Source: Bifidobacterium sp. ESL0704
GTDB taxonomy: Bacteria > Actinomycetota > Actinomycetes > Actinomycetales > Bifidobacteriaceae
Length of the DNA: 64,000 nt
NCBI RefSeq assembly: GCF_029392075.1
Contig: NZ_CP113929.1
Span: forward strand, 2,294,001-2,358,000
Reading direction: 5' to 3'
The first letter of the stretch is position 1; each line of letters begins with the position of its first letter. A program made the position numbers and the translations under genes. This document shows positions 11,150 to 53,119 of the stretch, piece by piece. The notes beneath the pieces are model-generated. The model saw only the letters and a list, made by a program, of their open reading frames with translations. It was not told where the DNA came from and made no database searches.

Positions 11150-11760
11150 CTCTGCTGGAGCTTTTGCGACGCTAATCGTCCCATTCGCGTCACGAAACCT
11201 CCAGCAGAGCACGATAGCGGAGGAAATCAGACGCTAAATGGCTTGTTGGCGTCGCAAAAGCGCCAGCAGAACACGATAGCGGAGCAAACACGACGCCAAA
11301 CGGCCCATCTACGACACAAAAGCGCCAGCAACGCCTGATAGCGGAGAAAACGCGACGCCAAACACGCCAATCGCGTCACAAAAGCGCCAACAAAGCACGT
11401 CGACGAAGACAACACGACCTGGAACCACTCCACTCACACCTTCCACTGCCCCACCTGCGTCGCAAAAGCGCCAGCAACGCCTGATAGCGGAGAAAACGCG
11501 ACGCCAAACACGCCAATCGCGTCACGAAACCTCCAACAGGGCACGATAACGGAGGAAATCAGACGCTAAATGGCTTGTTGGCGTCGCAAAAGCGCCAGCA
11601 GAACACGATAACGGAGCAAACACGACGCCAATCGTCCCATCTGCGTCACGAAACCTCCAGCAGAGCACGATAGCGGAGGAAACGAGACGCCAAACGCGCC
11701 AAACGCGACACAAAAACGCCAACAACGCCCCATAACGGAGCAATTACGACGCCACCCAAT
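11150..11760. repeat. 62-bp tandem repeat array 1 (about 10 units)
   Basis: Degenerate units carry a (C/A)GACGC core at 11167, 11229, 11291, 11353, 11415, 11499, 11561, 11623, 11685 and 11747. The spacing is exactly 62 bp except for one 84-bp step. Each unit also has GCGTCrCAAAAGCkCC and a CGATAxCGGAG block. Segments are duplicated within the array (around 11192-11300 and 11524-11632). The first unit is a near-perfect inverted repeat: 11152-11172 pairs with 11187-11207 at 18 of 21 positions. The array fills a convergent gap between the nitroreductase and a small minus-strand gene. Related arrays are at 38151-38575 and 40226-40395. Confidence 0.95.
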
Positions 11761-11830
11761 GGGCATATAGGCCTCAGCGAGTCAGGCAAATCGGCAACAG
11801 CGCCAAGCCTGCCCGCAGCCGGACCCTGTC

Positions 11831-12097
11831 TTAGCGCCGCCGCGGCTTGAAACCACGCTTGCGCGAATGAGGCTTCGCACGTCGCGCGGCAGCTTGCGCG
11901 CTGACACCACGCAAGAACTGTTCCTCTTTGGGATCGTGATGAGTCAAGTGCCAGCCACCGCAGAACTCGCATCGATACACCCACAGCTCGGCATCACGCT
12001 CGATAAAAGCCTGACGAGCTGCGCGCTCGGCCTGGGCCTTGTCGTGGTAGATGATCTTGCGCGAGCTGGCGCAACGTTTCGGCGTGAAGTAGTGCAC
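11831..12097 (-). CDS. Small conserved-looking basic protein with a Cys-x2-Cys/His motif
   Basis: An 88-aa protein. RCEFCGGWHLTHH looks like a single zinc knuckle (CxxC with nearby His), framed by a Lys/Arg-rich N-terminus and a strongly basic tail (AKPHSRKRGFKPRRR). This suggests nucleic-acid binding, but no function is known to me. The GTG start at 12097 has AGGGTGG about 4 nt upstream. It lies between repeat array 1 and the aldo/keto reductase gene. Confidence 0.7.
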   Translation of the reverse strand: MHYFTPKRCASSRKIIYHDKAQAERAARQAFIERDAELWVYRCEFCGGWHLTHHDPKEEQFLRGVSAQAAARRAKPHSRKRGFKPRRR

Positions 12098-12290
12098 GTA
12101 TCCACCCTAGCAATGCGGGATTACAGCAATCTGAAAGCGCTCAGACCGTCCGCCGCGGGATTACAGCCAGCTGAACGACCGTGGAACCGCACCATAAGCC
12201 GATTCACGCAGATACTATGCTGCTGGAAAACCGCATATAACCAACAATCAAAGTCCGTTTACCAGCATCCGCGACGCGCATAGATACAAA

Positions 12291-12339
12291 ATGCTGGTAA
12301 ACTGCACCTGAGCCGAAGCCAGATGCAGTTTACCAGCAT
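12291..12339 (-). terminator. Terminator after the aldo/keto reductase gene
   Basis: A perfect 16-bp inverted repeat (12291-12306 with 12324-12339) with a 17-nt loop lies just past the stop codon of the minus-strand reductase. A third copy of the right-arm core, TTTACCAGCAT, occurs at 12258-12268, allowing an alternative pairing. Confidence 0.7.
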
Positions 12340-12359
12340 GAATATGTTGAATCAGCGAT

Positions 12360-13301
12360 TTACGGCAGATCGTTGCCGGCGGCGAAGTAGAGATCGTACC
12401 ACTCCTGCGCGCTCAGCTCGACATCGGCCCCGGCCACCATCTCGGTCAGACGGCTCGGCGTCATCGAACCGAGCAACACCTGCATATGCGCGGGATGACG
12501 CAGAATCCACGCCACGGCAATCGCGTTCTTGGTCACGCCGTGCGCATCGGCCACGCGCTGCATCACCTCGTTGAGTTCCGGGAACTTCGGATTGTCGATG
12601 AAGACGCCCTCGAAGAAGCCGAACTGGAAGGGGCTCCACGCCTGGATGGTCATGTGGCGCAAACGCGAGTAGCTGATAAGCCCGCCGTCATGGTCGACGC
12701 TCGGCGCATCGGTCATGTTGACGTGCATCTCCTGACGCACCATGCCGGTGTGGCCCAAACCGAACTGCAGCTGGTTGACCTCGAGCTTCTGATCGAGGCC
12801 GCTCTGCAGCATCTCGACCTGCATCGGGCTGAAATTGCTGACGCCGAAATGACGCACCTTACCGGAGTTCTGCAACTCGTCGAACGCCTCGGCAATCTGC
12901 TCCAGTTCCATCAGCTGGTCCGGACGGTGCAGCAGCACCGAATCGACGTAATCGGTCTGCAGATTCTTCAGCTCGCTGTTAACCTGATCGACGAGGTACT
13001 GCTTGGTGAAGTCGTAGCGGTTGGCCTGGTCGTCGCTATCCGTGTCGCGATGGATGCCGACCTTGGTCTGCACGTAGATCTTGCTGCGGTCGACCTTGAG
13101 GTCCTGCAAGGCCTGCCCGAAGTGTCGGCTACTTTCGCCGTGCGTATAGCAATCCGCGGTATCGAAGAAATTCACGCCGCCATCCAACGCCGTACGCACG
13201 ATTTGCGCCGATTCCTCTGCTGTTTTAGAGTTCATCCGCATCACGCCGAGAGCGGTGCACGAGGCATTCATGCCCGACGTTCCTAGCTCACTATATTTCA
13301 T
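12360..13301 (-). CDS. Aldo/keto reductase
   Basis: A 313-aa NADPH-dependent oxidoreductase of the AKR superfamily, YdhF-like. The catalytic tetrad is visible as FDTADCYTHGE (Asp, Tyr), IYVQTKVGIH (Lys) and SVLLHRPDQL (His). VRHFGVSNFSPMQ and the C-terminal segment IAVAWILRHPAHMQVLLGSM line the cofactor pocket. It reduces carbonyl compounds in the cytosol; the substrate is unknown. The ATG at 13301 has AAGGAAGG about 6 nt upstream. It is divergent from pepC. Confidence 0.92.
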   Translation of the reverse strand: MKYSELGTSGMNASCTALGVMRMNSKTAEESAQIVRTALDGGVNFFDTADCYTHGESSRHFGQALQDLKVDRSKIYVQTKVGIHRDTDSDDQANRYDFTKQYLVDQVNSELKNLQTDYVDSVLLHRPDQLMELEQIAEAFDELQNSGKVRHFGVSNFSPMQVEMLQSGLDQKLEVNQLQFGLGHTGMVRQEMHVNMTDAPSVDHDGGLISYSRLRHMTIQAWSPFQFGFFEGVFIDNPKFPELNEVMQRVADAHGVTKNAIAVAWILRHPAHMQVLLGSMTPSRLTEMVAGADVELSAQEWYDLYFAAGNDLP

Positions 13302-13637
13302 AAATGACCTTCCTTGGTGGGTACATCAGCTTCCAGTCTAGGGCAAGAGCGTGAAGTGTCTGAGACGCGGACGCTCACTTTTCGCGAGGCGCAACATTTC
13401 CTGCGGCGTCCTATCAGAGCGACATCCCTGCCGCAACCTCGCAGTACGACGTCGCTACCTCGCCACCTTCCAGCACGACACCACAACCCCGCCACCTTTC
13501 GGCACGACACCACAACCCCAGCACAACGTCATAGCACAACACAGCAAGCAACAATCACACAACAGTCTGCACCTACGAGCAAAGCGCTCGAAGACAAGTC
13601 CCACGATAAAATATGAGCAAACGATTATGGAGGCAAA
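13302..13637. promoter_or_regulatory. Divergent intergenic region, aldo/keto reductase and pepC
   Basis: This 336-bp gap must hold both promoters. An imperfect direct repeat of about 30 bp (GCACGACACCACAACCCC, around 13472-13520) is present. GGAGG lies 4-5 nt before the pepC ATG. Confidence 0.4.
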
Positions 13638-15185
13638 ATGAGCGAAAGCAACACCGCAGGCGACGAAGCGACAACGACGGGCACGGCCGCCGAAAAAATG
13701 GCCATGAGCACCGATGATGTGCGCCAATACCACGAAGCGTACAACACACAGCCCGCGGCCCGTGCCAACCATGTCGCCGCGAATGCCGCGGTCAACAACG
13801 GCGTGCTCAAGGCCGCGACCAGCTACGCCGGCACGCGCGAGCTTGCACACGATTTCTCGATCGAGCTGAAACAGGGCACCATCACCAACCAGCGCCAAAG
13901 CGGCCGCTGCTGGATGTTCGCGGCGCTCAACACCCTGCGTTACGAGCTGATGCACCGCTTCAAACTGGAAAACTTCGAGTTCTCCGAGACCTATCTGTTC
14001 TTCTGGGACAAGTTCGAGAAGTCGAACACCTATCTGGAAAACGTGCTGGCCACACTCGATGAGCCGACCGACAGCCGCACCTTCGAGGCAATCAACAGTT
14101 ATCCGGCCGATGACGGCGGCTGGTGGCAGATGTTCGTCAACCTGGTCGACAAGTACGGGCTGGTACCGAAATCCGCCTATCCGGAATCCGCGAATTCCGA
14201 GAATTCCGACGCCTTTACGCAATACCTGACCACCAAGCTGCGCCAGTTTGCCATCGAACTGCGCAACCATCACGAGCAGGGCGCCAGCATCGACGAGCTG
14301 CGTGCGTTCAAGAAGAAATACATGGAGGACATCTATCGTATCTGCGCGATTGCGCTCGGCGAGCCGCCTGCCACGTTCGATTGGCGAGCGCGCGTCAAGG
14401 ACGGCGACGACGATAAGGATTCGGCCGATAAAAAGAAAGCCAATGGCAAGGCCGCTGTCAACACCGGCACCGATTCCAAATCGAGCGAAGACAAATCCGC
14501 AACTACGATCGCAGCCAAAGACGCCAAGGGCGAATCCGGCATCGACGAGCGCAAACAGATCGTGGAAATCGGCATCACGCCGCTCGAGTTCTACCACAAG
14601 TACGTCCCGGTCGATGTCGACGATTTTGTGACGGTGTGCAACAACCCGATGCCGAGCCGCCCGTTCTATACGCATTTCCAGCTCAAATATTCGACCAACG
14701 TCGCCGAAACCGGCAATCTCGACTTCACCAACGTCCCCATCGATGTGCTGCGCAAGGCGGCCGTCGACCAGGTGAAGGCCGGGCATCCGATCTGGTTCGC
14801 TTGCGACTGCATGCAATACAGTTTGCGCGACAGCGGATATTTCAGCAAAGACGCGGTGCGGGTCGACGAGCTGTTCGGAACCGATTTCAGCATCGACAAG
14901 GCACACGGCCTCGAATACGGCGATTATCCGAGCAATCACGCCATGACCATCACCGGGGTCAATCTCGACAAAGACGGCCAGCCCAATCGCTGGAAAATCG
15001 AGAACAGCTGGGGCAAAGACAACGGGGATGACGGCTACTACGTGGCCGACGGCAAATGGTTCGACCAGTTCGTCACCGAGGTCATCATCCGCAAGGAGTT
15101 CTTGGACGAGAACACACTTAAGGCAACGGCCAGCGAACCTACCATCCTTGAACCGTGGCAGGTGCTCAGCGCTCGTTGCGACTGA
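13638..15185 (+). CDS. pepC: Aminopeptidase C (bleomycin hydrolase family)
   Basis: A 515-aa cytosolic C1B cysteine aminopeptidase that trims N-terminal residues from peptides, normally as a homohexameric barrel. The catalytic residues are C91 (QSGRCWMFAALN), H434 (PSNHAMTITG) and N456 (KIENSWG). Usual length is about 440-450 residues. The excess is a short N-terminal extension and a charged segment of about 50 residues at roughly 253-303 (nt 14397-14547), rich in Asp, Lys and Ser, which interrupts a normal family alignment. A TGGAGGC site sits before the ATG at 13638. It is convergent with metG. Confidence 0.95.
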   Translation: MSESNTAGDEATTTGTAAEKMAMSTDDVRQYHEAYNTQPAARANHVAANAAVNNGVLKAATSYAGTRELAHDFSIELKQGTITNQRQSGRCWMFAALNTLRYELMHRFKLENFEFSETYLFFWDKFEKSNTYLENVLATLDEPTDSRTFEAINSYPADDGGWWQMFVNLVDKYGLVPKSAYPESANSENSDAFTQYLTTKLRQFAIELRNHHEQGASIDELRAFKKKYMEDIYRICAIALGEPPATFDWRARVKDGDDDKDSADKKKANGKAAVNTGTDSKSSEDKSATTIAAKDAKGESGIDERKQIVEIGITPLEFYHKYVPVDVDDFVTVCNNPMPSRPFYTHFQLKYSTNVAETGNLDFTNVPIDVLRKAAVDQVKAGHPIWFACDCMQYSLRDSGYFSKDAVRVDELFGTDFSIDKAHGLEYGDYPSNHAMTITGVNLDKDGQPNRWKIENSWGKDNGDDGYYVADGKWFDQFVTEVIIRKEFLDENTLKATASEPTILEPWQVLSARCD

Positions 15186-15190
15186 ATACG

Positions 15191-15232
15191 ATGAGGCCCG
15201 CCTTCGCCTTCTGTGCAAAGCGTGGGCCTCAT
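15191..15232 (+). terminator. Terminator after pepC
   Basis: ATGAGGCCC (15191-15199) pairs with GGGCCTCAT (15224-15232), starting 6 nt after the stop. There is no T-run. Confidence 0.6.
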
Positions 15233-15280
15233 TGGCCAGCTTCCATCGGTCGATCCTCTCGTTCAATATCCATTAGTCAG

Positions 15281-15424
15281 CTTACCGGCTTGTCGGCTTA
15301 CCGGTTTACCGGCTTACCGGCTTGTCGGCTTACCGGCTTACCGGCTTACCGGCTTACCGGCTTACCGGCTTGTCGGCTTACCGGCTTACCGGCTTACCGG
15401 CTTACCGGCTTACCGGCTTACCGG
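15281..15424. repeat. 8-bp tandem repeat, 18 units (CTTACCGG)
   Basis: Eighteen contiguous 8-bp units are present. Fourteen are CTTACCGG, three are CTTGTCGG (units 2, 6 and 12) and one is TTTACCGG (unit 4). They lie in the convergent pepC-metG gap. Because 8 is not a multiple of 3, all frames read as the same periodic peptide, but no ribosome site or plausible product is attached, so I treat it as non-coding. Confidence 0.95.
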
Positions 15425-15627
15425 CCACCCGTTGGCTCGTCTCCCACAGCGGCGACACCGCGACGGGCTCGAAAACCGAGGTATCCCCCAGCTACTCACT
15501 GTCGAAATCCGTGTATGTTACTGGATCAGCATCGGTTTATGCATCCACGGAAACGAATACCCATTCGAAAAGCCGACGAAACCCGGAGGGCTGGGCACAA
15601 ACAGGCAAAACCTACACAAAAAGAGAT

Positions 15628-15653
15628 GCCCGGCGGAGAGAAGGCCGCCGGGC
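15628..15653. other. GC-rich hairpin in a purine-rich stretch
   Basis: GCCCGGCGG pairs with CCGCCGGGC around an 8-nt loop, followed by a GA-rich tract and a second short hairpin (AGCGGTT-GA-ACCGCT, near 15706). It could be part of a small RNA, but I cannot assign a family. Apart from the elements listed, the 15186-16035 gap has no gene. Confidence 0.4.
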
Positions 15654-15943
15654 GAGAGAAGAGAGAAGAAGGTTCAATTATGGGATTCAGAGAAGAATCT
15701 CGCCAGCGGTTGAACCGCTGACACCTCTAATATAGCAGCATCTTCCTTGGGAAAATGATGTCCAGAACTCAAAGAAGCCTGTGAAAATTGTAACAATTAT
15801 GCAACGATATGTCGAAATATGTGACCGCGGACACCTTTATATGCCTTTAACCGAATAAATCAAGCCCAACTCATCGACATACGGAAAGCAACTGTCGCTT
15901 TACCGACGAAAACCGTAATCGCAAAAGCTCAGCTCAAAGCACA

Positions 15944-15977
15944 AACCCCGCCAACGACACATGTCGCGGACGGGGTT
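15944..15977 (-). terminator. Terminator after metG
   Basis: AACCCCG (15944-15950) pairs with CGGGGTT (15971-15977), with further inner pairing (CGACA with TGTCG). It lies 59 bp past the metG stop, with TTTG following on the minus strand. Confidence 0.65.
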
Positions 15978-16035
15978 GCCATCTAGCATCATGAGGCTCT
16001 AAGCCCCTACCGAGCTATCAGCCGTCAAGAAACCG

Positions 16036-17913
16036 TTACTTGCCGTTCTTTTCATCGGCAAGCTTTGCCTTGGCCTCCTTGAGACGTTCGGCTTCGGCCT
16101 CCTTGCGGGCGGCAAGATCGGCTTCAAAACGCGCCAGTTCTTCGTCGACGGCCTCTTTCGGAATCTTCTGGAAGATAGGCGAGGGCTTCGGAATCGTGGT
16201 ACCTACGATCAACGGCTCGCTGCGCCACGGATGAACCGTGCGTCCAAGCTCATAGTCTCCGGTGATGATCGGATAGGTGAAACCGGGCTTATCGAGATCC
16301 TCGACCTCCTCGATATGCGGCAACGGCGAGAACGTGCCCACGCCGCCGAGCGCCTCCCAGACCTTCTGCGCGGCCTGCGGCAGGAACGGGGCGAGCAGGT
16401 GGTTCGCATCCGAGACCGCCTGCGCACACGTATGCAGCACAGTGCCGAGACGCTTCGGGTCGTCTTTGATCTTCCAAGGCTCGACCGCGGAGATGTACTT
16501 GTTGATGTCGCCGACGACTTTCATCGCCTCGTTCAGGGCGTTCTTCTGGTGGTGATGCTCGATGAGCCCGCCGACCGTATCGAAAGCGGTGGCCGTCTCC
16601 TCGAGCAGAGCACGGTCCTCGGCCGTCATGGAATCCTCGTCAAGCACCGGAATCTCGCCGAAGTTCTTGTACATAAGGTTGGCGACACGGTTGACCAGGT
16701 TACCCCAGCTGGCGGCAAGCTCCTCGTTGTTGTGACGCACGAACTCCGACCAGGTGAAATCGGCGTCGGAAGTCTCGGGGCCGGCCACGGAAATGTAGTA
16801 GCGGACGGCGTCAACCGGGTACCGCGCCAGAATATCCTTGACATAGATGACGATGCCGCGCGACGAGCTGAACTTCTTGCCCTCCATGGTCATGAACTCG
16901 CTGGCCACGACCTGCTCGGGCATGTTGAGTTTGCCGAACTCGCCCGGCTCGCCGCCCTTGGAACCCTCGCCGTTGTAGGCGAGCATCTCGGAAGGCCAGA
17001 TCTGGGAATGGAAGGTGATGTTGTCTTTGCCCATGAAGTAATAGGCCGGAGACTTCGGATCGTTCCACCATTTCTTCCATGCGTCAGGCTCACCCTTGCG
17101 GCGGGCCCATTCGATGGAGGCGGACAAGTAGCCGATGACTGCATCGAACCAGACGTAGAGCTTCTTGTTGGGGTTGTCGATCCAGCCGTCGACCGGCACG
17201 GGGATGCCCCAGTCGATGTCGCGGGTGATGGCACGCGGCTTGACTTCCTTGAAGAGGCCCAGCGAGAAGTTGATGACGTTGGTACGCCAGCCCTTGCGGG
17301 TCTTGAGCCACGCCAGATTCGCCTCGGCGAGCGCCGGCAGGTCGAGGAAGAAGTGCTCGGTCTCCTTGAATTCCGGCTTTTCGCCGTTGATCTTGGAGAC
17401 GGGGTTGATCAGTTCATCCGGATCGAGTTCGTTGCCGCAGTTGTCGCACTGGTCGCCGCGAGCGCCGTCCGCCCCGCAGATCGGGCAGGTGCCCTCGATG
17501 TAGCGGTCGGGCAGGGTACGGCCGGTGGAAGGCGAGATAGCGACCTTCTGCGTACCTTTATATATGTATCCGTTTTTCAGGCACTGCTTGAACAACTCCT
17601 GGACGACGTGCTCGTGGTTGCCCGTCGTGGTGCGGGTAAAGAGGTCGTAGCTTAAGCCCAGATCGCAGAGATCCTTGGCGATGACGCGGTTGTAGCGGTT
17701 GGCCAGCTCCTGCGGGCTCACCCCCTCCTTGTCCGCCTCGACCAGAATCGGGGTTCCGTGCTCGTCGGTGCCGGAAACCATCAGGACATCATTGCCCTTC
17801 ATACGTTCGTAACGCGCGTATACGTCGGAAGGCACGCCGAAACCGGCAACGTGGCCGATATGGCGTGGACCGTTCGCATACGGCCATGCAACGTTTACCA
17901 AAATATGAGTCAT
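16036..17913 (-). CDS. metG: Methionyl-tRNA synthetase
   Basis: A 625-aa class I aminoacyl-tRNA synthetase charging tRNA-Met. [14 protein letters not shown] contains the HIGH signature, KKFSSSRG the KMSKS-type loop, and CPICG...CDNCG the zinc-binding knuckle insertion. The anticodon-binding helical domain follows, and a Lys/Glu-rich coil ends the protein. There is no C-terminal tRNA-binding (EMAP-like) domain, as in shorter actinobacterial forms. The gene is convergent with pepC. Confidence 0.97.
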
Positions 17914-18081
17914 AACTACTGATTATTGGGCCCAGCGGGGACAGCGAGGGGCTTTCGCCTTCAAGCAAGCCAACAGATTCGAGGCGATAAGCGGAACTGA
18001 AGCACTTGTTGACCGTGTCATCCACAATTGCGCCAATGCGACAGCCAGCTGTCCACATGTCCACCTTTTACCTGTTTTGTG

Positions 18082-18111
18082 TTGCAGGTCATACCATGTC
18101 ATACCTATATT
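18082..18111 (+). promoter_or_regulatory. Candidate promoter for a leaderless message
   Basis: TTGCAG (18082-18087), an 18-bp spacer and TATATT (18106-18111) precede the ATG at 18119 by 7 nt, placing the expected transcription start at or next to the start codon. No ribosome site is visible. Confidence 0.45.
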
Positions 18112-18118
18112 GCCAACC

Positions 18119-19009
18119 ATGAACACTGCAACCATAGACGCACAGCGCACAGAGCACCCTTACTTCCGCAAACCGACAGACCGGGGTGGAGCGCTCGGCA
18201 CCGGGCATCCGCCGCCGAGCGCCCGAGCAGATGCTGGCCGGCACAAAAGCACCGGCAGGCCGGGCATCCTCGGCCGGAAGCAACGCAAGCCGGCAAATCC
18301 GAAACTAGGCAAAGGCAGAAGCGAACGTTTCGAGCCAAACGTGCCAGACCTCGCTGCCCGCGGCACGATGGAGCGTCCCGGCAACATCGCCACCAGCACC
18401 GCGCCGCCCATTAACCGCACCGCGCCGCCCATTAACCACACCACGCCACCCAACCGCAGCACGCCCATGCTCATGAGCAATCGCGACCTGCCGGGCCCGT
18501 TAAGCATGAACCGGCTTGACGATTTCGGCGCCCTGCACCGTCTCGATGACATCAGCGCCTATCTCGCCGAATACTCGGACACGCTTTTCGGCAGAGGGAT
18601 CATCATGACCAAAGTCGTGCCGAGCCACGCCATCGCCTGCAGCCGCAGTGCCCTGTGGGTATGGATGGGCGGCGGTTTCCCCGATGTCATCGACATCATC
18701 TCCGGATCGCACTTCCGCTCGATGGCCTATGGCCGTCCGATCAAAACATACGATCGCTGCGTCCCCGAAGGGCACATGAGCACCATCGCGGGCCTGAAAG
18801 TGACCTCGCCGACCAGAACGGCATGCGACATCGCGCTGATGAGCGGCGCCACCATACCGGGCAAACGTCGCTCGGAACTGATCTGCGCGATTATGCGGGA
18901 ATACCATATCTCTCCAGCCGCTTGCCTCACGATCCTCGAAAAGAACCATTTCTGGCCGAATGTGCCGCAAGCCCGTCGGTTCTTCAAAGCCGTCCAATAC
19001 TGTTTTTAG
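18119..19009 (+). CDS. AbiEi-antitoxin-like hypothetical protein
   Basis: A 296-aa protein from the ATG at 18119. The C-terminal ~180 residues resemble the region of AbiEi-type (type IV antitoxin-like) actinobacterial proteins with an IAGLKVTSPTRTACDIA motif. The family commonly has a helix-turn-helix before this and sometimes a nuclease domain after it; here the N-terminal ~115 residues are Pro/Arg-rich low complexity instead, including a repeated APPINRT unit (nt 18394-18455). No AbiEii-type nucleotidyltransferase toxin is adjacent. The exact start is uncertain; 18473 is an alternative. Function is inference only. Confidence 0.6.
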   Translation: MNTATIDAQRTEHPYFRKPTDRGGALGTGHPPPSARADAGRHKSTGRPGILGRKQRKPANPKLGKGRSERFEPNVPDLAARGTMERPGNIATSTAPPINRTAPPINHTTPPNRSTPMLMSNRDLPGPLSMNRLDDFGALHRLDDISAYLAEYSDTLFGRGIIMTKVVPSHAIACSRSALWVWMGGGFPDVIDIISGSHFRSMAYGRPIKTYDRCVPEGHMSTIAGLKVTSPTRTACDIALMSGATIPGKRRSELICAIMREYHISPAACLTILEKNHFWPNVPQARRFFKAVQYCF

Positions 19010-19144
19010 AATCCGCTCGTCGTCAATAGACAGATTGACGATTAAGCCCTACAAGAGAATAAAAAAGGTGAAGAGCTATCATGGTGTAATCGGCGTTCAC
19101 GCTCACAGGCGATTTGAAACGCGCATCGAGAGGACAGATTTGCC

Positions 19145-20899: not shown

Positions 20900-21188
20900 A
20901 ACACAAAGAGCACAACGAAGGCGCATAGACAAGCTCGGCATCCCGAAGCAGGCCAGTCGGCAGGATGCCCAGGAGCGCAATACCGATATGCCTATCGATG
21001 AAAGCCGAAGGTAAATTCGTACACACCAAGGCACGCTCACCAAGCCCGAACCGCCTAGTCAGCGCTTGAAGAGAGTCTGCCTCCTGCGTGGAACCGCCCC
21101 GGCCGGCACCCATCGAATGGCATGAGACATTACGGAAGGCCTATCTCACCTGCACGCGGGACGCCCGGTAACTTGGGGACGAGCCGCA

Positions 21189-21236
21189 TGCAGGATCGGC
21201 CAGGTGCAGGATCGGCCAGGTGCAGGATCGGCCAAT
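21189..21236. repeat. 16-bp tandem repeat, 3 units
   Basis: The unit TGCAGGATCGGCCAGG is present twice exactly and once with two changes, followed by degenerate remnants to about 21270. It lies in the convergent gap between the MHS transporter and the pilin gene; the rest of 20900-21185 shows nothing I recognise. Confidence 0.9.
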
Positions 21237-21285
21237 GTGGGACTGGGCGCGTACAGGACCGGCCAGGTGCCACTACATATATATA

Positions 21286-21325
21286 GGTGTGCCCGGAAAG
21301 CCAATATAGACTTTCCGGGCACACC
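21286..21325. terminator. Terminator at the end of pilus locus 1
   Basis: A perfect 15-bp inverted repeat (21286-21300 with 21311-21325) with a 10-nt loop lies 100 bp past the stop of the minus-strand pilin, and convergent to the transporter gene. Confidence 0.75.
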
Positions 21326-21425
21326 CAGAATTCAGGACCGTCAACCGACGCTCGTGATTCGCCACCACTCCGCGTTCACAGCGGGCAGGAACGGCTCACC
21401 AACACCGGTCGGCGACCGAACGCAC

Positions 21426-23354: not shown

Positions 23355-23460
23355 GGGAGTACCTCTCTCTTTCCCTATTGTTGTTTGATTGTGACAAATT
23401 TTTGATATGTTGCCGGGCATGCATCCGCCGCCTCACGACGACAGACGCTTCCCGGAAAAT

Positions 23461-28103: not shown

Positions 28104-28526
28104 GCTGCATCTCCATATCCCTAGCCGTCACCAGACACCACAATGTAATGCCGACACTTGAACGAACATACCACCAAAGCTACCGGAAATCGAATGCGGT
28201 CACCCTATGCGAGCTTCGTCGCTGCGCCAAGCAGCCAGCAGGGAGAAACCATTCCCCATGGCGGCTTCTGCCGCGGGCGGGCAGCCTCAATGCCATACAA
28301 TCCGCCAGAGCCAGAGCCGCTGCGTGTTCATATCGAGGTCTCAACGTGCCCCGGGCTGCGTTGACGGCGAGCTCCAGCATCACGTCGCAACACGCCGATT
28401 CGTCCCGTTGCGCCATAGACCATCCCCGGTTTCTCCGGAACCGTAAAAGTCTTGGTATCCCTATGTGCGTATCGATATGCCGGAGAGCCTTCGGATCATC
28501 CTGCACCGTTTCCGGCACAACGAGAA

Positions 28527-28573
28527 ACCCCGTCTGCCCCGGAACGCCGAAGCGCGTCGGAAGCAGACGGGGT
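28527..28573 (-). terminator. Terminator after the ABC exporter operon
   Basis: A perfect 11-bp stem (28527-28537 with 28563-28573) with a structured 25-nt loop lies 71 bp past the stop of the second ABC subunit; TTTCTCGTTGT follows on the minus strand. The rest of 28104-28643 shows no gene. Confidence 0.7.
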
Positions 28574-28643
28574 GATCACGGTTCCACGGACCATGCTCAA
28601 TGACCGAGCAACCATGCCAAAGACACGGCCGGCCGCAGAGGCG

Positions 28644-30479: not shown

Positions 30480-30590
30480 TTGTTCACTACTTTCGTTTTC
30501 AAATTCCTACGTTGATTATGATTTCAGTATCTGCGTGCAGCTGCTGCGTGCGGATTCATTCATTCCTCCGCTGCCGAAGTGGGTCTACGA

Positions 30591-30755
30591 CATGGGTTTG
30601 TAGCTTTTCGACGAACCCCGGCTACAAACCCAGCATCAAGGCCCGCTTAAACATGGGTTTGTAGCTTTCGTACGAATAAAAGCTACAAAACCTGCATCTG
30701 CACCTTCCTCAACATGGGTTTGTAGCTTTCCGACGGACTTTAGCTACAAAACCTG
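30591..30755. repeat. 61-bp tandem palindromic repeat, 3 units
   Basis: Each unit starts with TGGGTTTGTAGC(T) at 30593, 30654 and 30715 (exactly 61 bp apart) and ends with the inverted (A)GCTACAAAaCC(C) about 28 nt later. Unit 1 pairs perfectly over 12 bp (30593-30604 with 30621-30632). They lie between the two co-directional ABC exporter genes. Two more units are at 42081-42181. Confidence 0.95.
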
Positions 30756-30811
30756 TTCCTGCACATTCCTCACGTGAATCGGCACCGTGCCTGACGCACG
30801 ATGAGCACCGT

Positions 30812-32671: not shown

Positions 32672-32867
32672 GGATCCCCTTTCATACTTCTTTGGAATAG
32701 CCAACGAATTTATTGACTACCCATAGATTACTTACAGTGTTAGATATTTGATTATCTGCGCGGTACATTACACGCAATCTTTACCTTTGATGCGAATTTC
32801 GCCACGCGCTTGCACGCGCGTACTGCTCCAGCTCGCACCCGTCGCGAGTTGATGCGGAAACCTTGCT

Positions 32868-33437
32868 TCACGCCTTCGCGCCAGCCGAATCCGGCTCATC
32901 TTTACGGGCTGCGCTCACACTTTCGCCACCCGAGTCGAGCCATGCCCGATGACGCTGCTCCCAGTCCGCAAACGCCTGCGAAACCTCGGCGGCGCTGGGA
33001 CGATCCTCGCCAGGCTTGCACACCGTAAGGTAGACGATAAATTCCTCGGCCAGATTCACGAACTCACGAGCCCTGCGCTCACCCATCTGCGAAAAGATCC
33101 AGCAGACGGCCGAGTCGATCTTCCCCTGGTCGCCGGCGGCCTGTTCGCGGCCGGCATCGGTCAAGGAGACCAATACATTGCGCCGGTCCTTCGCGTCGAT
33201 CTCACGCGAAACGAGCCCCTTCGACTCCAAAGCCTTAAGCAGCGCGGAGATGCGGCCGGAACTGGCATGGAGCGCAACGGCAAGCTGGGTGGGCGTAGCG
33301 GTACCGTGCCGCAACAACTGGCGCAACACGAACGGCTCGCCCCGGTTCGAACGGTCCAGCTCGTTCCACAACACTGATTTGCTGTTCGCCGCGCTCCAGT
33401 TGAGGTCGCGCAACGCCTCCTGCTCAAAACCCATCAT
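32868..33437 (-). CDS. MarR-family transcriptional regulator
   Basis: A 189-aa winged-helix regulator. LRQLLRHGTATPTQLAVALHASSGRISALLKALESKGLVSREIDAKDRRNV shows the helix-turn-helix, recognition helix and the D-x-R wing of the family. It is the first gene of the minus-strand set with the two ABC exporter subunits, so it probably represses the exporter and responds to its substrates. GGAGTGA lies right before the tandem ATG ATG start. Confidence 0.9.
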   Translation of the reverse strand: MMGFEQEALRDLNWSAANSKSVLWNELDRSNRGEPFVLRQLLRHGTATPTQLAVALHASSGRISALLKALESKGLVSREIDAKDRRNVLVSLTDAGREQAAGDQGKIDSAVCWIFSQMGERRAREFVNLAEEFIVYLTVCKPGEDRPSAAEVSQAFADWEQRHRAWLDSGGESVSAARKDEPDSAGAKA

Positions 33438-33585
33438 TCACTCCGTTACTCTTCTTCGATGGCATTAATCCTAACACCGATGAATAGTTTGCACTAGAAG
33501 CTTTCGCGGATACAGGAACATCTACCGAAAAACGGATTCGCATTCTTTGCCCCCTCCACGAAACCGACAACCGCACAAACAAAAA

Positions 33586-33622
33586 CTTCCCGCCTCAAGG
33601 GACGAACCCAAGAGACGGGAAG
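33586..33622 (-). terminator. Terminator after the 67-aa gene
   Basis: CTTCCCGCCTC (33586-33596) pairs with GAGACGGGAAG (33612-33622), with one mismatch. On the minus strand the stem is followed by TTTTTGTTTGT, a classic intrinsic terminator. Confidence 0.85.
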
Positions 33623-33660
33623 ACTAAAGTCTAAATTTTTAAATCCCGAACAGAACCCTA

Positions 33661-33864
33661 TCAGGCCTTTGCAACCGGACGAAGATCAGCATGATGACGC
33701 TTGAGATACTCACCGACCGCCTCACGAATGAGTACAGAAGGACGAACCTCTTCATCCGCCGCTCCCGAAAGAACCCAATCAGCGAGCTCCGACGTCGCAC
33801 GAACGCACCAAGTACGCTCTTGAAGCTGACGAACCCCATGCTGTGCCTTAACCGCCTTAGCCAT
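33661..33864 (-). CDS. Small hypothetical protein (67 aa)
   Basis: It begins MAKAVKAQHGVRQLQERTW and includes EEVRPSVLIREAVGEYLKRHH. The second half could form a helix-turn-helix-like or ribbon-helix-helix pair (SVLIREAVGEYL resembles the second helix of Arc/MetJ-type antitoxins), but I cannot assign a family. It is very likely a real gene: GGAGGTAGGAA directly precedes the ATG and an intrinsic terminator follows. A DNA-binding antitoxin is one possibility; no toxin partner is recognised nearby. Confidence 0.7.
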   Translation of the reverse strand: MAKAVKAQHGVRQLQERTWCVRATSELADWVLSGAADEEVRPSVLIREAVGEYLKRHHADLRPVAKA

Positions 33865-33894
33865 TTCCTACCTCCATTATTATGAATAAAACTT

Positions 33895-33948
33895 GTGTTA
33901 CCGATAGCCTAACTGTAACACATTTTCGGTAAACCGAAACAGTTACAC
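33895..33948. promoter_or_regulatory. GTAACAC-type repeats and hairpin upstream of the 67-aa gene
   Basis: GTGTTAC (33895-33901), its inverse GTAACAC (33915-33921) and GTTACAC (33942-33948) are clustered 30-85 bp before the start. TGTAAC/GTTACA also flank an inner TTTCGGT/ACCGAAA dyad (33914-33947). This looks like an operator region, possibly for the small protein itself. Confidence 0.45.
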
Positions 33949-33998
33949 ACCGATTGTGAGCCAACTATCATCACACAAACCCCGTTGGTGCAAGTTCC

Positions 33999-34220
33999 CT
34001 AAACACCAACAATATTCAAGGTAATACAGCTTTCAGATTTGTCAATCTGTATTTCAGCCAACACCGCGATTTCACCCAATCCATTTCGGATAAAAATTAT
34101 CCAAAACCCAATATTTGCAATATCTTTCGGGGACTTAAAACCTTTTAAAAAAGATTTTACGCTCTTGGCGTAATCCTCGAAAACCGTGGTGCGACACGCC
34201 CGAAATGGAATATGGCACAC
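33999..34220 (-). CDS. Doubtful small ORF, AT-rich
   Basis: A 73-aa frame with protein-like sequence (VFEDYAKSVKSFLKGFKSPKDIANIGFW). It begins with GTG without a ribosome site, and its base composition is clearly lower in GC than its neighbours. It may be a fragment of a lost gene or non-coding. Confidence 0.25.
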   Translation of the reverse strand: MCHIPFRACRTTVFEDYAKSVKSFLKGFKSPKDIANIGFWIIFIRNGLGEIAVLAEIQIDKSESCITLNIVGV

Positions 34221-34269
34221 TCATCAAACGTTCTAACAAAAAAATACCGATTCATTACCCATTTTCGGT

Positions 34270-35847
34270 TCAGACCAGCAGCTCGACCTCTCTGCCGCGG
34301 TAACGAATCAGGCTGTAACCGCCGAAAAGCACCAGCCAGACCAGCCCGGCGATAGCCGAACCACGGGTGTCGGGAGCCAAGAACAACGTGGCGTAGATGA
34401 ACACGAAGAAGAAGATCGTCAGCGTATTCGTGAGCTTGTAGGCCGGCATCACGAAACCGTCGGCCTCGAAATCGGCGGAACGGCGATAGCACTGGTGCGC
34501 CACCATCGTCAGGATGTAGATGAAGATGATCGCGGCGCTGGAGGCCGAGGCGAAGAGCACGAACGCGCTGGAAATCTGCGGAATCGCGTTGATGACCGGC
34601 GAAAGCAGGATGAAGCAGGCGGAGACCACGATGGCGCGGGCCGGAACCCTGTTCTTCGAGACGACGCCAAGCTTCTTGAGCGTGGGCGAGGTGGAGACCT
34701 CGGCGAGCTGGAAGAGGTGGCGACCGGCGGAATAGAGCAGCGAGTTCAACGCGGAGGACGCAGCGGTGATGACCACGAAGAAGACCAGCGCCGAGGCCCA
34801 CTTGAGGCCCGCGTACTGGAAGACCATGATGAACGGGGAGGCGAAGGAGCCGTCCTTGTTCGGCTTGAACGACTGCCACGGCACAATCAGCATGATGGCG
34901 ATCAGCGCGCCGACATAGAAGATCAGGATGCGCATGATGATCTCGTTGATGGCTTTCGGCAGCACCTTGCGCGGGTTTTTGGTCTCGCTGACGGTGACGC
35001 CGACGAATTCGATCATCTCGTAGGAGAAGAAGACCATCTGGAAAGCCATGAGGAAGGCGACCCAGCCGTTGGGCGCCAAGGTCAGGCCGTTGAAGATGTT
35101 GTCTAGGCCCGCATGGCCGGCCGGGCTGATATGGTCGACGCCGTGGACCTGCACGGCGGGATAGTGGAAGTTGACGATGACCATGACCACGGCGGTGACG
35201 ATCAGGCCGACTATCAGGGTGATCTTGATCATCGAGAACCAGAATTCGGTCTCGCCGAACGCTTTGACCGCAATGAGATTGATGATCGCGAGCAATGCGA
35301 GGAAGCAGACCTCGATCAGCGGCTGCCACGCGCGCAGATCGAAGCCGAATGTGTCGAAGAAGGTGACGAAATACGTGCCGACCGCGGTTATTTCGCTCAA
35401 GCCCATAAGGATAAGGACGATCCAGTAGGTCCAGCCTGCGAAATGCCCCCAGCCGGAGCCGAGGTAACGGCCGATGAAATTGATGAAGGTATGCTGGTCC
35501 GGATCGTGATACATCAGCTCGCCGATGGCCCGCATCAGGAGGAACATCATCAGGCCGACGAGGATGTAGACCAGGATGATGCTGGGGCCGGTGAAGGCGA
35601 TCGACTTGCCGGAGCCCAGGAACAGGCCGGTGCCGATGGTGCCGCCGATGGCGATGAACTGGACGTGGCGATTGCTCAGGCCACGCTCGAGCTGGTTGCT
35701 CTCCTCGCCCGCGCTGCCGCCGCCAGGTCGGGAAGCGTTTGCCGACGTGCCCGTTGCCGTGGCGTTGGCTGCTGACGATGCATGTGCAGCTTTGGCGTTG
35801 GTTCCGGCATCGGTCGCGGTATTCCTGCTTCCATCCATTGGTGTCAT
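34270..35847 (-). CDS. Amino-acid permease (APC superfamily, AAT family)
   Basis: A 525-aa membrane transporter with 12 hydrophobic segments. RHVQFIAIGGTIGTGLFLGSG is the consensus TM1 of the AAT family, GELMYHDPDQHTFINFIGRYLG precedes TM3, and FGETEFWFSMIKI and SETKNPRKVLPKAINEI are conserved loops. The family imports amino acids by proton symport; CycA/GabP-type carriers are the closest by motif, but the substrate is not shown. A 60-residue Ala/Ser/Thr-rich hydrophilic N-terminus precedes TM1. The start at 35847 has AAGGGA 6 nt upstream; the frame is open further. Divergent from a second permease. Confidence 0.9.
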   Translation of the reverse strand: MTPMDGSRNTATDAGTNAKAAHASSAANATATGTSANASRPGGGSAGEESNQLERGLSNRHVQFIAIGGTIGTGLFLGSGKSIAFTGPSIILVYILVGLMMFLLMRAIGELMYHDPDQHTFINFIGRYLGSGWGHFAGWTYWIVLILMGLSEITAVGTYFVTFFDTFGFDLRAWQPLIEVCFLALLAIINLIAVKAFGETEFWFSMIKITLIVGLIVTAVVMVIVNFHYPAVQVHGVDHISPAGHAGLDNIFNGLTLAPNGWVAFLMAFQMVFFSYEMIEFVGVTVSETKNPRKVLPKAINEIIMRILIFYVGALIAIMLIVPWQSFKPNKDGSFASPFIMVFQYAGLKWASALVFFVVITAASSALNSLLYSAGRHLFQLAEVSTSPTLKKLGVVSKNRVPARAIVVSACFILLSPVINAIPQISSAFVLFASASSAAIIFIYILTMVAHQCYRRSADFEADGFVMPAYKLTNTLTIFFFVFIYATLFLAPDTRGSAIAGLVWLVLFGGYSLIRYRGREVELLV

Positions 35848-36393
35848 AATCTTCCCTTCGCTTCTTGCTGCTTCAAGCGCAATAGTGAATAGAGTACGCC
35901 GGAAGAGATGACATCGGGGTTTCCGGGGGCGGTTTTCGGGGGAATTACCGCCGATAAAGTGACAATATATGATGAAAACTGACACAAATAATCGACTTTT
36001 CCGCGCAAGCAACACGCCATTTCAGCGTTTATCGCTCGTTGATGGCGCAAATGCAAAAGTTTTGGTCAGTGTCTCATAACGTGGACTATTTCACAGCGCC
36101 AACGAAGGCCAACAGCGCAAACCAAGCGGAACCGGCTCGAATTGAACAAACTCGAGACGCGCACTTCAAGGCGAGGCGCGGGAGAGCCTTTGTCAAATCC
36201 CGAACCAACCAACGCAAATATCCCCTTACGGCCTTAGACTTTCGAAATGTTGGGGAAATTTTCAAACGAGCCGCACACGCCAGCCGCCAATCACGGTCGA
36301 ACGACCCGCGTGGTCTATTTCCGTCAAAGCGCCGCGCCGAAACGCGCGACACGTAATACACGAGCAGGGAATCCCGTGAAAGAGGAGCGCCAC
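35848..36393. promoter_or_regulatory. Divergent region between two amino-acid permeases
   Basis: The 546 bp hold both promoters. No gene, clear operator or riboswitch is recognised. Confidence 0.4.
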
Positions 36394-38016
36394 ATGACTG
36401 GTCAGTCGGGCACAATAACAGACAACAATACAAGCGGCGGAAACGGCATAGGCACAAGCCGCGCGAACGCTGGCACAGCAGCCGGCAACCTTCCTAGCAG
36501 CGGCGGCGATGCCGGAAATATCGGGAAATCTGCAAAACCAAGAAAACAAGGCGGCAACCACGTCCTGCGCAAGCTCAAGACCCGACAAATCTCGATGATC
36601 GCACTCGGCGGGTGCATCGGCACCGGCCTTTTCATGACCTCCGGCGGCACCATCGCCGAAGCCGGGCCTGGCGGCGGACTCGTGGCCTACGCGGCCATGG
36701 GCGTGATGATCTACTTCTTGATGACCAGCCTCGGCGAGCTCGCCACCAACATGCCCGTCTCCGGATCGTTCGCCGTCTACAGTTCCAAATACGTCGACCC
36801 GGCGCTCGGCTTCGCGATGGGCTGGGACTACTGGCTCAACTGGGCCATCGCCGGCGCCACCGATATCTCGACCGCCGCGCTTTTGATGCAGTACTGGTTC
36901 CCGAAGTCCCCGGGCTGGGTGTGGAGCCTGACGATGCTCGTTATCATCTTCTGCCTCAACGCCTTCGTGGTCTCCGCGTTCGGCGAGACGGAATTCTGGC
37001 TGGCGCTGATCAAGGTCGTCACCATCATCATCTTCATCGTCGTGGGGCTGCTGATGATCTGCGGCATCATGTTCCAGCCGGCCGTCGGTTTCAAGAACTT
37101 CACCTATAAAGGCGGGCCGTTCATCGGCGGTTTGCCCGCAATCATGGGCGTCTTCCTCATCGCCGGCTACTCGTTCCAAGGCACCGAGGTCGTGGGCGTG
37201 ACCGCGGGCGAATCCGAGAATCCGACGCAGGCGGTGCCGAAGGCCATCAACAACGTCTTCTGGCGCATCATCCTCTTCTATCTGCTTTCGATCTTCGTGA
37301 TCGCGGCCATCATCCCCTACACCGACCCGAACCTGCTCGGCGCTTCCGACAGCAACATCGCGATGTCGCCGTTTACCATCGTTTTCGAGAAGGCCGGACT
37401 GGCGGGCGCGGCAAGCATCATGAACGCCGTCGTGCTCACCTCGATTTTGTCGGCCGTCAACACCGGCGCCTACGCCTCCAGCCGCATGCTCTACGGCATG
37501 GCGAAAGACGGCTATGCACCGAAGTTCCTGGGAACCACCACCAAGCGCGGGGTGCCGCTTGCAGCGCTGATCACCACGCTGTGCATCGAGGCGCTGGCGT
37601 TCTCGAGCAGCATTTTTGGGCCGAAATTCTATATGTGGCTGGTCACCGCGACCGGCCTGACCGGCTTCATTTCCTGGATCGGCATCGCGCTGAGCCACTT
37701 CCGCTTCCGTCGCGCGTTCAAGCTGCAAGGCCACAAGCTCTCTGAGCTCAAGTACCGCGCCAAGCTCTTCCCGTTCGGGCCTCTCCTGGCCATCGTGCTC
37801 TGCTTGCTGGTGATCTGCGGACAGGACCTGCCAGGCTTTGCCTCCGGTAACTGGGGCGAGCTGCTGGCCACCTATTTCAGCGTCATCCTCGTCGCCATCC
37901 TCTACTTCGGCTTCAAATTCACGCGCCACACCCACATCGTGAAACTTGCGGACATGGACGTCTCCTCGGCCCGCCCCGAAGTGCTGAAAAAGCAGGCCGA
38001 AGCGTCCACCAAGTAA
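36394..38016 (+). CDS. Amino-acid permease (AAT family, LysP-like)
   Basis: A 540-aa permease. LKTRQISMIALGGCIGTGLFMTSG is TM1, and GELATNMPVSGSFAVYSSKYVDPALGFAMGWDYW strongly resembles the LysP/basic and aromatic amino-acid carriers. FGETEFWLALIKV, the TAGESENPTQAVPKAINNVFWRI loop and 12 TM segments support the family. It should be a proton-coupled importer in the cell membrane. A ~60-residue Gly/Asn/Ala-rich N-terminus precedes TM1. GAGGAG lies about 6 nt before the ATG at 36394; earlier in-frame starts lack support. Confidence 0.92.
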   Translation: MTGQSGTITDNNTSGGNGIGTSRANAGTAAGNLPSSGGDAGNIGKSAKPRKQGGNHVLRKLKTRQISMIALGGCIGTGLFMTSGGTIAEAGPGGGLVAYAAMGVMIYFLMTSLGELATNMPVSGSFAVYSSKYVDPALGFAMGWDYWLNWAIAGATDISTAALLMQYWFPKSPGWVWSLTMLVIIFCLNAFVVSAFGETEFWLALIKVVTIIIFIVVGLLMICGIMFQPAVGFKNFTYKGGPFIGGLPAIMGVFLIAGYSFQGTEVVGVTAGESENPTQAVPKAINNVFWRIILFYLLSIFVIAAIIPYTDPNLLGASDSNIAMSPFTIVFEKAGLAGAASIMNAVVLTSILSAVNTGAYASSRMLYGMAKDGYAPKFLGTTTKRGVPLAALITTLCIEALAFSSSIFGPKFYMWLVTATGLTGFISWIGIALSHFRFRRAFKLQGHKLSELKYRAKLFPFGPLLAIVLCLLVICGQDLPGFASGNWGELLATYFSVILVAILYFGFKFTRHTHIVKLADMDVSSARPEVLKKQAEASTK

Positions 38017-38150
38017 GGGATCCTCGGCCGCCGGATAAGAAACCGCAACAACCAAGCAGGAGCCGGCAGTGGCCGCAAAGTGGCATGACCATCATTAACC
38101 CGCCTGGCCGCAACGCACACGAATATCATGCACCGTTCCCGGCCAGGCTT

Positions 38151-38575
38151 GCTGGAGGTTTCACGACGCAAATCACCCAACCCGCGACACAAAAGCTCCA
38201 GCAACCGTCGACAGCGGAGGTTTCACGACGCAAAACACCCAACCCGCGACACAAAAACTCCAACAACTTACGACAGTGGAGACTTTGCGACGCAAAACAC
38301 CCAATCTGCGACACAAAAGCTCCAGCAAGCCACAGTAACGGAGGAAACACGACGCAAAACAGGCCGATAGCGACACAAAAGCTCCAACATCCGACGATAA
38401 TGGAGGAAATGCGACGCAAAACAGGCCAATAGCGACACGAAACCTCCAACACCAGACGATAATGGAGGAAATGCGACGCAAAACAGGCCGATAGCGACAC
38501 AAAAGCTCCGACAACCCACGACAGCGGAGGAAATGCGACGCAAAACAGGCCGCTAGCGATACCAAAAGTTGTCAA
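38151..38575. repeat. 62-bp tandem repeat array 2 (about 7 units)
   Basis: CGACGC cores lie at 38164, 38226, 38288, 38350, 38412, 38474 and 38536, all exactly 62 bp apart. The unit reads roughly GGAGGAAATGCGACGCAAAA, about 14 variable bases, then GCGACACAAAAGCTCC and a variable CGATAA/CGACAG block. The first unit begins with the inverted half-unit seen in the other two arrays. It is in the convergent gap after the LysP-like gene. No gene lies in 38017-38793. Confidence 0.95.
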
Positions 38576-38659
38576 TAGGCCGGCACGTCCAAGCTCGCAG
38601 CATTCGCAAGTTGGCATCAAATCGCACAGCATCCCCGAACACATCTTACGCAAAAAGAA

Positions 38660-38700
38660 AGTTGCCTCTCGATCCGCTTCTCGCCAATCGGGAGGCAACT
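38660..38700 (-). terminator. Terminator after the 125-aa membrane protein gene
   Basis: AGTTGCCTC-t-CGAT (38660-38673) pairs with ATCG-g-GAGGCAACT (38687-38700). TTTCTTTTTG follows on the minus strand. Confidence 0.85.
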
Positions 38701-38793
38701 GAACAACCAGATAAAAGTCAAATCACTGCTGTTGCCGGCGCTGTAAGACCCGGCGCCAAGCGCAACCATGCAGACAACCGAGTAGAGGCAACG

Positions 38794-39171
38794 TCAAGCA
38801 ACAAGATATGTTGCCATCTCGGATCCAGCCTCGGTTTCATCGATACCGACCGCATAAGCGGCGGATTGAATCTTGGAGTCGGCGGTGCGGCCGGCCTTGT
38901 CGCCTTGGTCGGGTTCGGTGGCCGGATTCACGTGAATCGTGCTGTCCGGTCCTTCCTGAGCCTCCGATTCGGTCTGCATATAGACTGCGGAAACAGGATG
39001 CGGTGCCTCGACGACCGTATAGGTATGCATATCTTTAAGGATTGCGAATACGGCCACAGCGGCAAGCGCAAAGAAGGCGAGGCGGTAAACGATGCCTTTG
39101 ATACGCGAGATGGCTGAGCCACGAGACTTTCTGCGGGCCGTCTTATCTACGAACCGATTGCTTCTTGCCAT
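38794..39171 (-). CDS. Hypothetical single-pass membrane protein (125 aa)
   Basis: The N-terminus is basic (MARSNRFVDKTARRKSRG), followed by one TM helix (VYRLAFFALAAVAVFAILKD, residues ~28-47) and an acidic, probably extracellular tail of about 75 residues. I do not recognise a family. AAGGA lies ~9 nt before the ATG, and an intrinsic terminator follows, so it is likely a monocistronic real gene. Confidence 0.7.
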   Translation of the reverse strand: MARSNRFVDKTARRKSRGSAISRIKGIVYRLAFFALAAVAVFAILKDMHTYTVVEAPHPVSAVYMQTESEAQEGPDSTIHVNPATEPDQGDKAGRTADSKIQSAAYAVGIDETEAGSEMATYLVA

Positions 39172-39535
39172 GGCTGCCGTCCTTAAACGCGTAAATTCGT
39201 CGCCCCTCGCCCAGCGATTGGCGATTCAGCCCGCCCGCGTAAGAAGTGATTGATCAATATTCAACAAGTGATTGCTGAATGCGTAAAAAGACTATCGTTC
39301 TCACAGCGCGTCAAAAACCAAAATTTGCGTATGGCGGCGCATCGTTGCACAAACGTCATTCGCTGATTATTGGCCTGATTATACAAAAACTGTTGATTTT
39401 ATACGGTTTGCAGCCACTTTCATACGCGCGGACCCGCCTTCTGGAATTTCGGGGAATGTAACACCACTCACAGATCAAAAATCCCATACCGCGCAAGAGA
39501 GCATTCACCTAACGTAATGGGCACCGTTCCAGCAA

Positions 39536-39915
39536 ACGCCGTATTGTCAAAATATGCGAGCGACGCCGCCACATCCTTATGATTTCAGTGCCCAACCCGG
39601 TATCCACAGCACGTAACGACACCACTGCATCCACACGGTTCCAGCGCCCAAACCAGTATCCATAGTTCATAACACCACTGCCACACCCGTATGACCCCGG
39701 CACCCAACCCGATATTCGTAGCGCGTAACGCCACCGCCACACCCGCACGATTCCAGCGCCCAACCCAGTATCCACAGTTCATAACACCACTGCCGCATCC
39801 GTATGACTCCGGCACCCAACCCGATATTCGTAGCGCGTAACGGCAATGCCACATACGTATGATTTCAGCACCTAATCCGATAGCCACAGTATGTAACGAT
39901 ATCCGCATTACGTAT
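39536..39915. repeat. 56-bp tandem repeat array (about 6 units)
   Basis: A CCCAACCC-type core recurs at 39591, 39647, 39703, 39759, 39815 and 39871, exactly 56 bp apart. Units contain CCgATATTCGTAGCGCGTAACG or CCAGTATCCACAGTTCATAAC variants that partly alternate, which implies a 112-bp higher-order unit. It is non-coding and in the long gap before the ilvC end. The neighbouring 39172-39535 shows nothing I recognise. Confidence 0.92.
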
Positions 39916-40225
39916 GACAACCCGTGATTGCCATTTTCGCAACAGCTGGGTCTGGGCCGTTTGCGCTCCATGCCACAGTGCGCAAAACGAACGCCAAGAA
40001 GAATCCATCCATGCTTACTTGTCGGGTTTCCCATGAAGGTAATCATTTCAGATAAAGAATATTATGCATTTTACCTAGTTATTCATGTGGTTATACATTT
40101 TGCAGCATTTCGTGCCGGAAATCCGCCGTCGATGATCCGACATGTTGCCCGCGCGGCCACCAGAGACGTCGATTCCCGTCGGTCGGGCATCGCCAATGGC
40201 CCATCCGCCTGCACTGTTGTTCGTT

Positions 40226-40395
40226 ACTGGAACTTTTGCGACGCAAAAAGACCAGACAGCGTCACAAAAGCTCCAACAACAAACAATAACGGCAGAATCA
40301 CGACGCAAAAAGACCAGACAGCGTCACAAAAGCTCCAACAACAAACGATAACGGCAGAATCACGACGCAAAACAACCAAATAGCGTCACAAATCC
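40226..40395. repeat. 62-bp tandem repeat array 3 (about 3 units)
   Basis: CGACGC cores are at 40239, 40301 and 40363 (62 bp apart). The array starts with CTGGAACTTTTGCGACGC, an inverted half-unit pairing with GCGTCACAAAAGCTCCAAC in the same unit. Units share the GCGTCACAAAAGCTCC and CGATAACGG blocks with arrays 1 and 2. Confidence 0.95.
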
Positions 40396-53095: not shown

Positions 53096-53119
53096 AGTAT
53101 CAGCAATACGCTCTGGTGC

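Follow-up and report, generated by a model that had tools for sequence, protein, structure and literature searches.

Among the bacterial interspersed mosaic elements (BIMEs), BIME-2 is bound or cleaved by DNA gyrase, and the TIGR (tandem interspaced guide RNA) arrays are composed of tandem dyad-like repeats. In enterobacteria, Pseudomonas and Stenotrophomonas, repetitive extragenic palindromes (REPs) and BIMEs are described, in the available part of PMC2817692, as intergenic sequences of many copies whose regularly spaced inverted elements form module arrays; the REPs are themselves palindromes, with pairing kept by complementary changes, and are associated with RAYT genes. In Bifidobacterium animalis lactis AD011, according to the available part of PMC5217627, the motif pair GGGACAG(N)15TGTCCC is intergenic in 20 of 21 copies and lies mostly nearer the 3′ ends of genes. 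The repeat considered here is a 62-bp dyad that forms three arrays (A1, A2 and A3) in a window of 64,000 nucleotides from Bifidobacterium sp. ESL0704 (genome G000; NZ_CP113929.1, positions 2,294,001-2,358,000). It is part of a real, partly position-conserved BIME-like array system, whose combination of properties was found nowhere described. The preferred reading, with a probability of roughly 40%, is that the arrays are BIME-like intergenic strings of putative protein-binding half-sites in duplex DNA.

Alignment on GACGC shows each unit to be an imperfect dyad, in which a 20-bp half-site is followed by a 14-bp loop, the inverted counterpart of the half-site and an 8-bp linker. The left half-site has the consensus TACYGGAGGAWTCACGACGC and the right half-site GCGTCACAAAACCTCCARCA. 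Each contains an outer box, GGAGG in ESL0704, and an inner box, GACGC, with an A/T-rich spacer between them that occurs in either sense (GAAAC and GTTTC, for example). Successive box centres are separated by 11, 19, 11 and 21 bp, which brings the period near six helical turns. Conservation is weak in the loop and linker, while the half-sites are kept across 135 units. The constraint on unit length proposed from the sequence alone is supported, and appears strong, from the step length, which is exactly 62 bp in 100 of 108 ESL0704 steps, the others being 61 (one), 63 (two), 123 (one), 125 (two), 146 (one) and 186 bp (one). In the relative G025, with 91 units, 58 of 75 steps fall at 60-65 bp, eight at 51-53, none at 54-59 and five at 66-68, and four are longer. 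Helical quantisation of the periods of tandem families was tried as a general rule and set aside; with a Rayleigh p of about 2e-5 on 16 post hoc values and p 0.15 for the six period classes alone, it is suggestive only.

The ESL0704 chromosome is a single contig of 2,415,815 bp. A profile built from the sequences of 17 window units has at least 150 matches in it at E <= 0.01; the 150 best of 1287 first-look candidates were scored, and weak copies may be missed. Chance is excluded because the strongest match not used in building the profile, at 2286519 and far outside the window, has an E value of 3.0e-15. Grouping of the matches gives about 28 arrays, of which three are those of the window, and a rescan of the 28 gave the 135 aligned units. 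The genome scan proposed in the sequence-only reading thus bore out its view of one amplified family, with about 25 further arrays beyond the window. All 28 arrays lie between predicted genes, as bounded by codon-based gene calls made in this analysis. At the start of the contig are genes that, read by eye, look like dnaN, recF and gyrB, and in sampled stretches the GC skew switches sign somewhere from about 1.0 to 1.4 Mb. The 28 arrays all lie outside the zone around this presumed terminus (0.966 to 1.663 Mb), and a largest gap of this length (0.7 Mb) among 28 random points has p 0.003; a pair with another outer-box type is found inside the array-free zone, at 1466744. In G025, 0.94 Mb is empty among 24 array positions taken from the matches listed (p 2e-4).

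With REPs and BIMEs, as the available part of PMC2817692 presents them, these arrays share an intergenic location (28 of 28), a high copy number (135 units) and regularly spaced inverted elements. Unlike a REP, the half-site is not palindromic and the arms do not covary; unlike both REPs and BIMEs, the outer box depends on the species at shared positions. The AD011 motif pair is likewise an intergenic dyad with a similar gap, but its sequence differs, and the available part of PMC5217627 reports neither tandem arrays nor a fixed period for it. The regular tandem arrangement recalls CRISPR (clustered regularly interspaced short palindromic repeats). A CRISPR-like guide array was rejected, as the repeat drifts and loops recur among the units of single arrays, so that there are no unique spacers; in this respect the arrays also differ from TIGR arrays. 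No element of this kind is named in the titles and abstract openings found, in a literature search mostly outside subscription papers, and the text of PMC2267715 does not mention Bifidobacterium. The supposition that no named bifidobacterial element matches therefore holds as far as the search reached.

The flanks of the 28 ESL0704 arrays were compared with 35 array loci in five relatives (19 in G025, 8 in G113, 3 in G029, 1 in G055 and 4 in G058). At 17 loci (7, 4, 2, 0 and 4, respectively), the match extends to both flanks and the gap contains a dyad; two more match on both sides of a gap without one. Thirteen of the 28 arrays, including A1 (partner in G025), have a partner array in a relative's orthologous gap, against 5 of 156 control gaps under a loose rule that yields 0.73 chance dyads per kb (Fisher p 7e-9); four of these five are at one 16-kb locus. 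Half of the control stretches sit in the terminus zone, and outside it the control count is 1 of 73 (p 5e-8). Under a strict rule, in which the locus-defining match must be inside the gap, the counts become 16 of 35 loci and 1 of 156 controls. Because 13 of the 28 positions are common with a relative's array, many arrays look inherited in place. This counts in part against a recent date for the dispersal proposed in the sequence-only reading, although the A2 site has no array in any of 11 relatives.

At all 17 shared sites, the strand corresponding to that of ESL0704 relative to the flanks has an A+C content above 0.5 (0.53 to 0.74), as is mostly the case in ordinary gaps. The outer box at these sites, read by eye, is of the TTGC type in G025, G029 and three of four G113 sites, and of the AGCAGA or AGGAGA type in G058 and one G113 site. 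Shared gaps with differing outer boxes thus mean that position is conserved even as the sequence of the repeat changes in concert. The site at 2250181, followed in 14 genomes, has 7 units in ESL0704, 5 units with steps of 51-52 bp in G025, two and a partial unit in G029, a single terminator-like hairpin in seven genomes and nothing visible in four. The single hairpin (GCGTCACAAGGCCTCC ... GGCCTTGTGGCG; L197-L200 and L204-L206) shows apparent compensatory changes between species.

The family is not limited to ESL0704. At E <= 1e-4, the window profile finds matches in 3 of the 61 genomes examined from the genus, and 33 of the 189 genomes from the taxonomic family contain the core pattern with at most two mismatches, mostly in one to a few copies; both counts include ESL0704. 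Copies of the core pattern number 51 and 50 on the two strands of ESL0704, and 102 and 53 on those of G025. A G025 profile has 180 matches in G025 itself, 58 in G113, 45 in ESL0704, 13 in G029, 8 in G055 and 3 in G058, and none in G048, G015 and G004. Counts of the bare dyad are above those of the reversed control in several species, among them ESL0704 (80 vs 12), G025 (99 vs 7) and G078 (51 vs 2); the dyad occurs at least once in 102 of 112 genomes, many of them near the control level. Five compared relatives keep the inner box, GACGC-N14-GCGTC, while the outer box differs (GGAGG, TTGC and AGGAGA types). G035 and G078 contain dyads with yet another outer box, TTCTGCC, of which some form pairs 52 bp apart. 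The exact core was found in 17 genome_contigs stretches, four from Bifidobacterium (B. tibiigranuli twice, B. subtile and one metagenome-assembled genome) and 13 from other bacteria, the latter near the estimated chance level of about 7. A distant-mode search of plasmid records gave no match, and viral contigs none to the exact core pattern.

If the half-sites are bound as duplex DNA, a dimeric or multimeric DNA-binding protein, possibly a nucleoid protein or gyrase as for BIME-2, would occupy successive half-sites and could shape topology or chromosome structure at the ends of transcription units. Unequal recombination and conversion between arrays would determine how many copies there are and would allow a concerted change of the outer box in each genome. 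Among the three origins suggested from the sequence (mobile repeat, nucleoid-protein array and transcript-end structure), the DNA-protein array fits best. Several observations weigh against it. The 66-68-bp steps of G025 do not fit whole helical turns, 15 of the 28 ESL0704 arrays have no partner among the compared loci, and A2 has no counterpart array in any of 11 relatives. Array settings (8 convergent, 2 divergent and 18 tandem) do not differ significantly from those of the 156 control gaps (24, 28 and 104; divergent p 0.26, convergent p 0.11). As RNA, the units of both strands also fold better than shuffled sequence does (mean z -3.05 and -3.28), and function is not required for concerted change to occur. 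A more specific version, in which the arrays are a chromosome-organising site system of bifidobacteria, with position-conserved, terminus-avoiding arrays of same-face half-sites and a putative dedicated protein whose recognition box changes by species with all arrays following, is rather unlikely.

The main rival, and a strong one, is a selfish palindromic element, MITE (miniature inverted-repeat transposable element)- or REP-like, that was spread by some enzyme, is now inherited in place and is homogenised by recombination without a host function. Such an element is possible, if not likely. It would suit the high copy number in two species with few copies in others, the perfect palindromes that occur at array starts and as single copies, the absence of A2 from relatives and the several other palindromic families of similar period in ESL0704. 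It does not readily explain why the unit shows almost no length change across 108 steps, or why positions are shared between species above expectation. A Y1/RAYT transposase was rejected as the mover, since PF01797, the sole transposase family searched, was found in none of 19 genomes, while 5 of 14 control genomes were positive.

Arm pairing bears on a structure acting at the RNA level, in which the arrays would be transcribed as 3′ regions and their hairpins would end or protect transcripts. The two arms of a unit form 12.21 Watson-Crick pairs out of 20, compared with 12.15 after shuffling of arms among units (p 0.25), and allowing G-U pairs changes little (p 0.12 for the A/C-rich strand, p 0.16 for the T/G-rich strand). 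A hairpin centred on the linker gives p 0.98 and 0.97 for own versus other arms. Combinations that break a pair are as frequent as expected (46 observed, 42 expected), and pairing at the 20 positions equals, or nearly equals, the independent-column expectation in ESL0704. The 91 G025 units follow expectation too, with a deficit at one position (30 vs 44). A hairpin under selection was therefore not retained within the family, as arm covariation is found in neither genome, and sites in duplex DNA therefore account better for the conservation. The transcript-end option of the sequence-only reading is weakened likewise. In its favour, the T/G-rich strand has 81% standard pairs with G-U, against 63% on the other strand, and folds at -20.3 rather than -14.3 kcal/mol; 15 of the 18 arrays in tandem settings are closer to a 3′ end (sign test p 0.008; two of the 15 by one base); and a lone terminator-like hairpin occupies the 2250181 site in seven relatives. 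The first units of arrays fold best, which is expected of dyads. The arrays, however, occur in either sense relative to the adjoining gene, and covariance models of 4227 Rfam families gave no match in the window at the gathering score. An RNA-level role seems improbable.

The A+C content is above 0.5 on the replichore-expected strand in 27 of 28 arrays. The exception is the array at 1907685, where the profile also prefers the opposite strand; at 394381, two of three matches, but not the best one, are on the expected strand. In G025, 12 of 13 clusters agree with the replichore. Ordinary gaps lean to A+C on the same strand in 73 of 84 cases, and strand orientation was accordingly no longer taken to prove oriented insertion; what sets the arrays apart is only how large the A+C excess is (0.657 in arrays vs 0.555 in ordinary gaps, p 2e-10), together with an end asymmetry. 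In 23 arrays, the first left arm has an A+C content of 0.46, compared with 0.73 inside (paired p 2e-4), whereas the last right arm against the inside gives p 0.12 (difference between the two end effects, p 0.011). A neutral tandem repeat, produced and shaped by slippage and strand-biased mutation, would account for the replichore bias common to arrays and ordinary gaps, and is very improbable in view of the A+C excess above those gaps, the conservation of half-sites across 135 units whose loops and linkers drift, a 62-bp step held in 28 separate arrays, and positions common to other species with different units.

Within the window, the three arrays have one common unit, as the sequence-only reading had stated, and are all on the plus strand; the anchor spacing, a period of 62 in each array by Tandem Repeats Finder and the shared profile agree. 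A1 (11149 to about 11754) contains 8 full units, a half unit and a degenerate stretch, with GACGC anchors at 11168, 11230, 11292, 11354, 11500, 11562, 11624, 11686 and 11748. Its first unit (11149-11210) is a near-perfect 62-bp palindrome with 28-nt arms that are 86% complementary, and in each window array the best-formed palindrome is the first unit. A2 (38146 to about 38566) has 7 units and A3 (40221 to about 40395) has 3. The exact 62-bp anchor spacing stands throughout apart from one 146-bp step in A1, from 11354 to 11500, over a diverged interruption (11397-11480). A1 adjoins nitroreductase and aldo-keto reductase genes; A2 is flanked by an amino acid permease gene and by a 125-aa open reading frame without a Pfam match; A3 adjoins the same reading frame and lies 3′ of the end of the ketol-acid reductoisomerase gene. 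The gene families flanking the three arrays are unrelated to one another. At the A2-equivalent place, 3′ of the permease gene, several relatives (L145-L147, L149, L150, L153 and L155) have another short palindrome, similar to GTCAATAGACTGAC, which repeats about every 40 bp, mostly ahead of an ATPase-like gene.

Other repeats are present in the window and elsewhere in the chromosome. A palindromic tandem family of period 61 (GGGTTTGTAGC ... GCTACAAACCC) is found at 30590-30772 and 42069-42183 of the window, and a family with a CTTGGTGCACCAAG palindrome and a period of 62-63 at 46917-47062 and 54531-54676 of the window and at chromosomal positions 938222 and 2080814. Palindromes of AAAAGTGCAC enclose GACGC and GCGTC at 52824-53098 of the window and at 1800428-1801071 of the chromosome (L048), where about 10 copies have a period of 51. 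Close to A3, at 39591-39890, is a 56-bp tandem repeat with a 112-bp higher-order unit that is not clearly palindromic, and simple repeats with units of 8 bp (GCTTACCG, repeated about 18 times) and 9 bp occupy 15280-15425 and 40424-40588. A long CRISPR-like array with repeat GTCGCTCCCTTCGCGGGAGCGTGGATTGAAAT and a step of 65-67 extends from 1070726 to 1077366 of the chromosome (L177). In the stretches sampled, the terminus zone has 2 other tandem families in 254 kb and the rest of the chromosome 11 in 335 kb; several of them score weakly as palindromes.

These strings of mirror-image sites suggest either an unnamed DNA landing-site system or a long-lived genomic parasite. If selfish, the repeat would be a BIME-like element without the transposase that accompanies BIMEs. 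If the half-sites are binding sites, an entire set of sites would have switched sequence in step between close species and yet stayed in place, providing a natural case for the co-evolution of a DNA-binding protein and its sites, and the arrays would point to a so far unrecognised layer in how an important gut genus organises its chromosomes or transcript ends.

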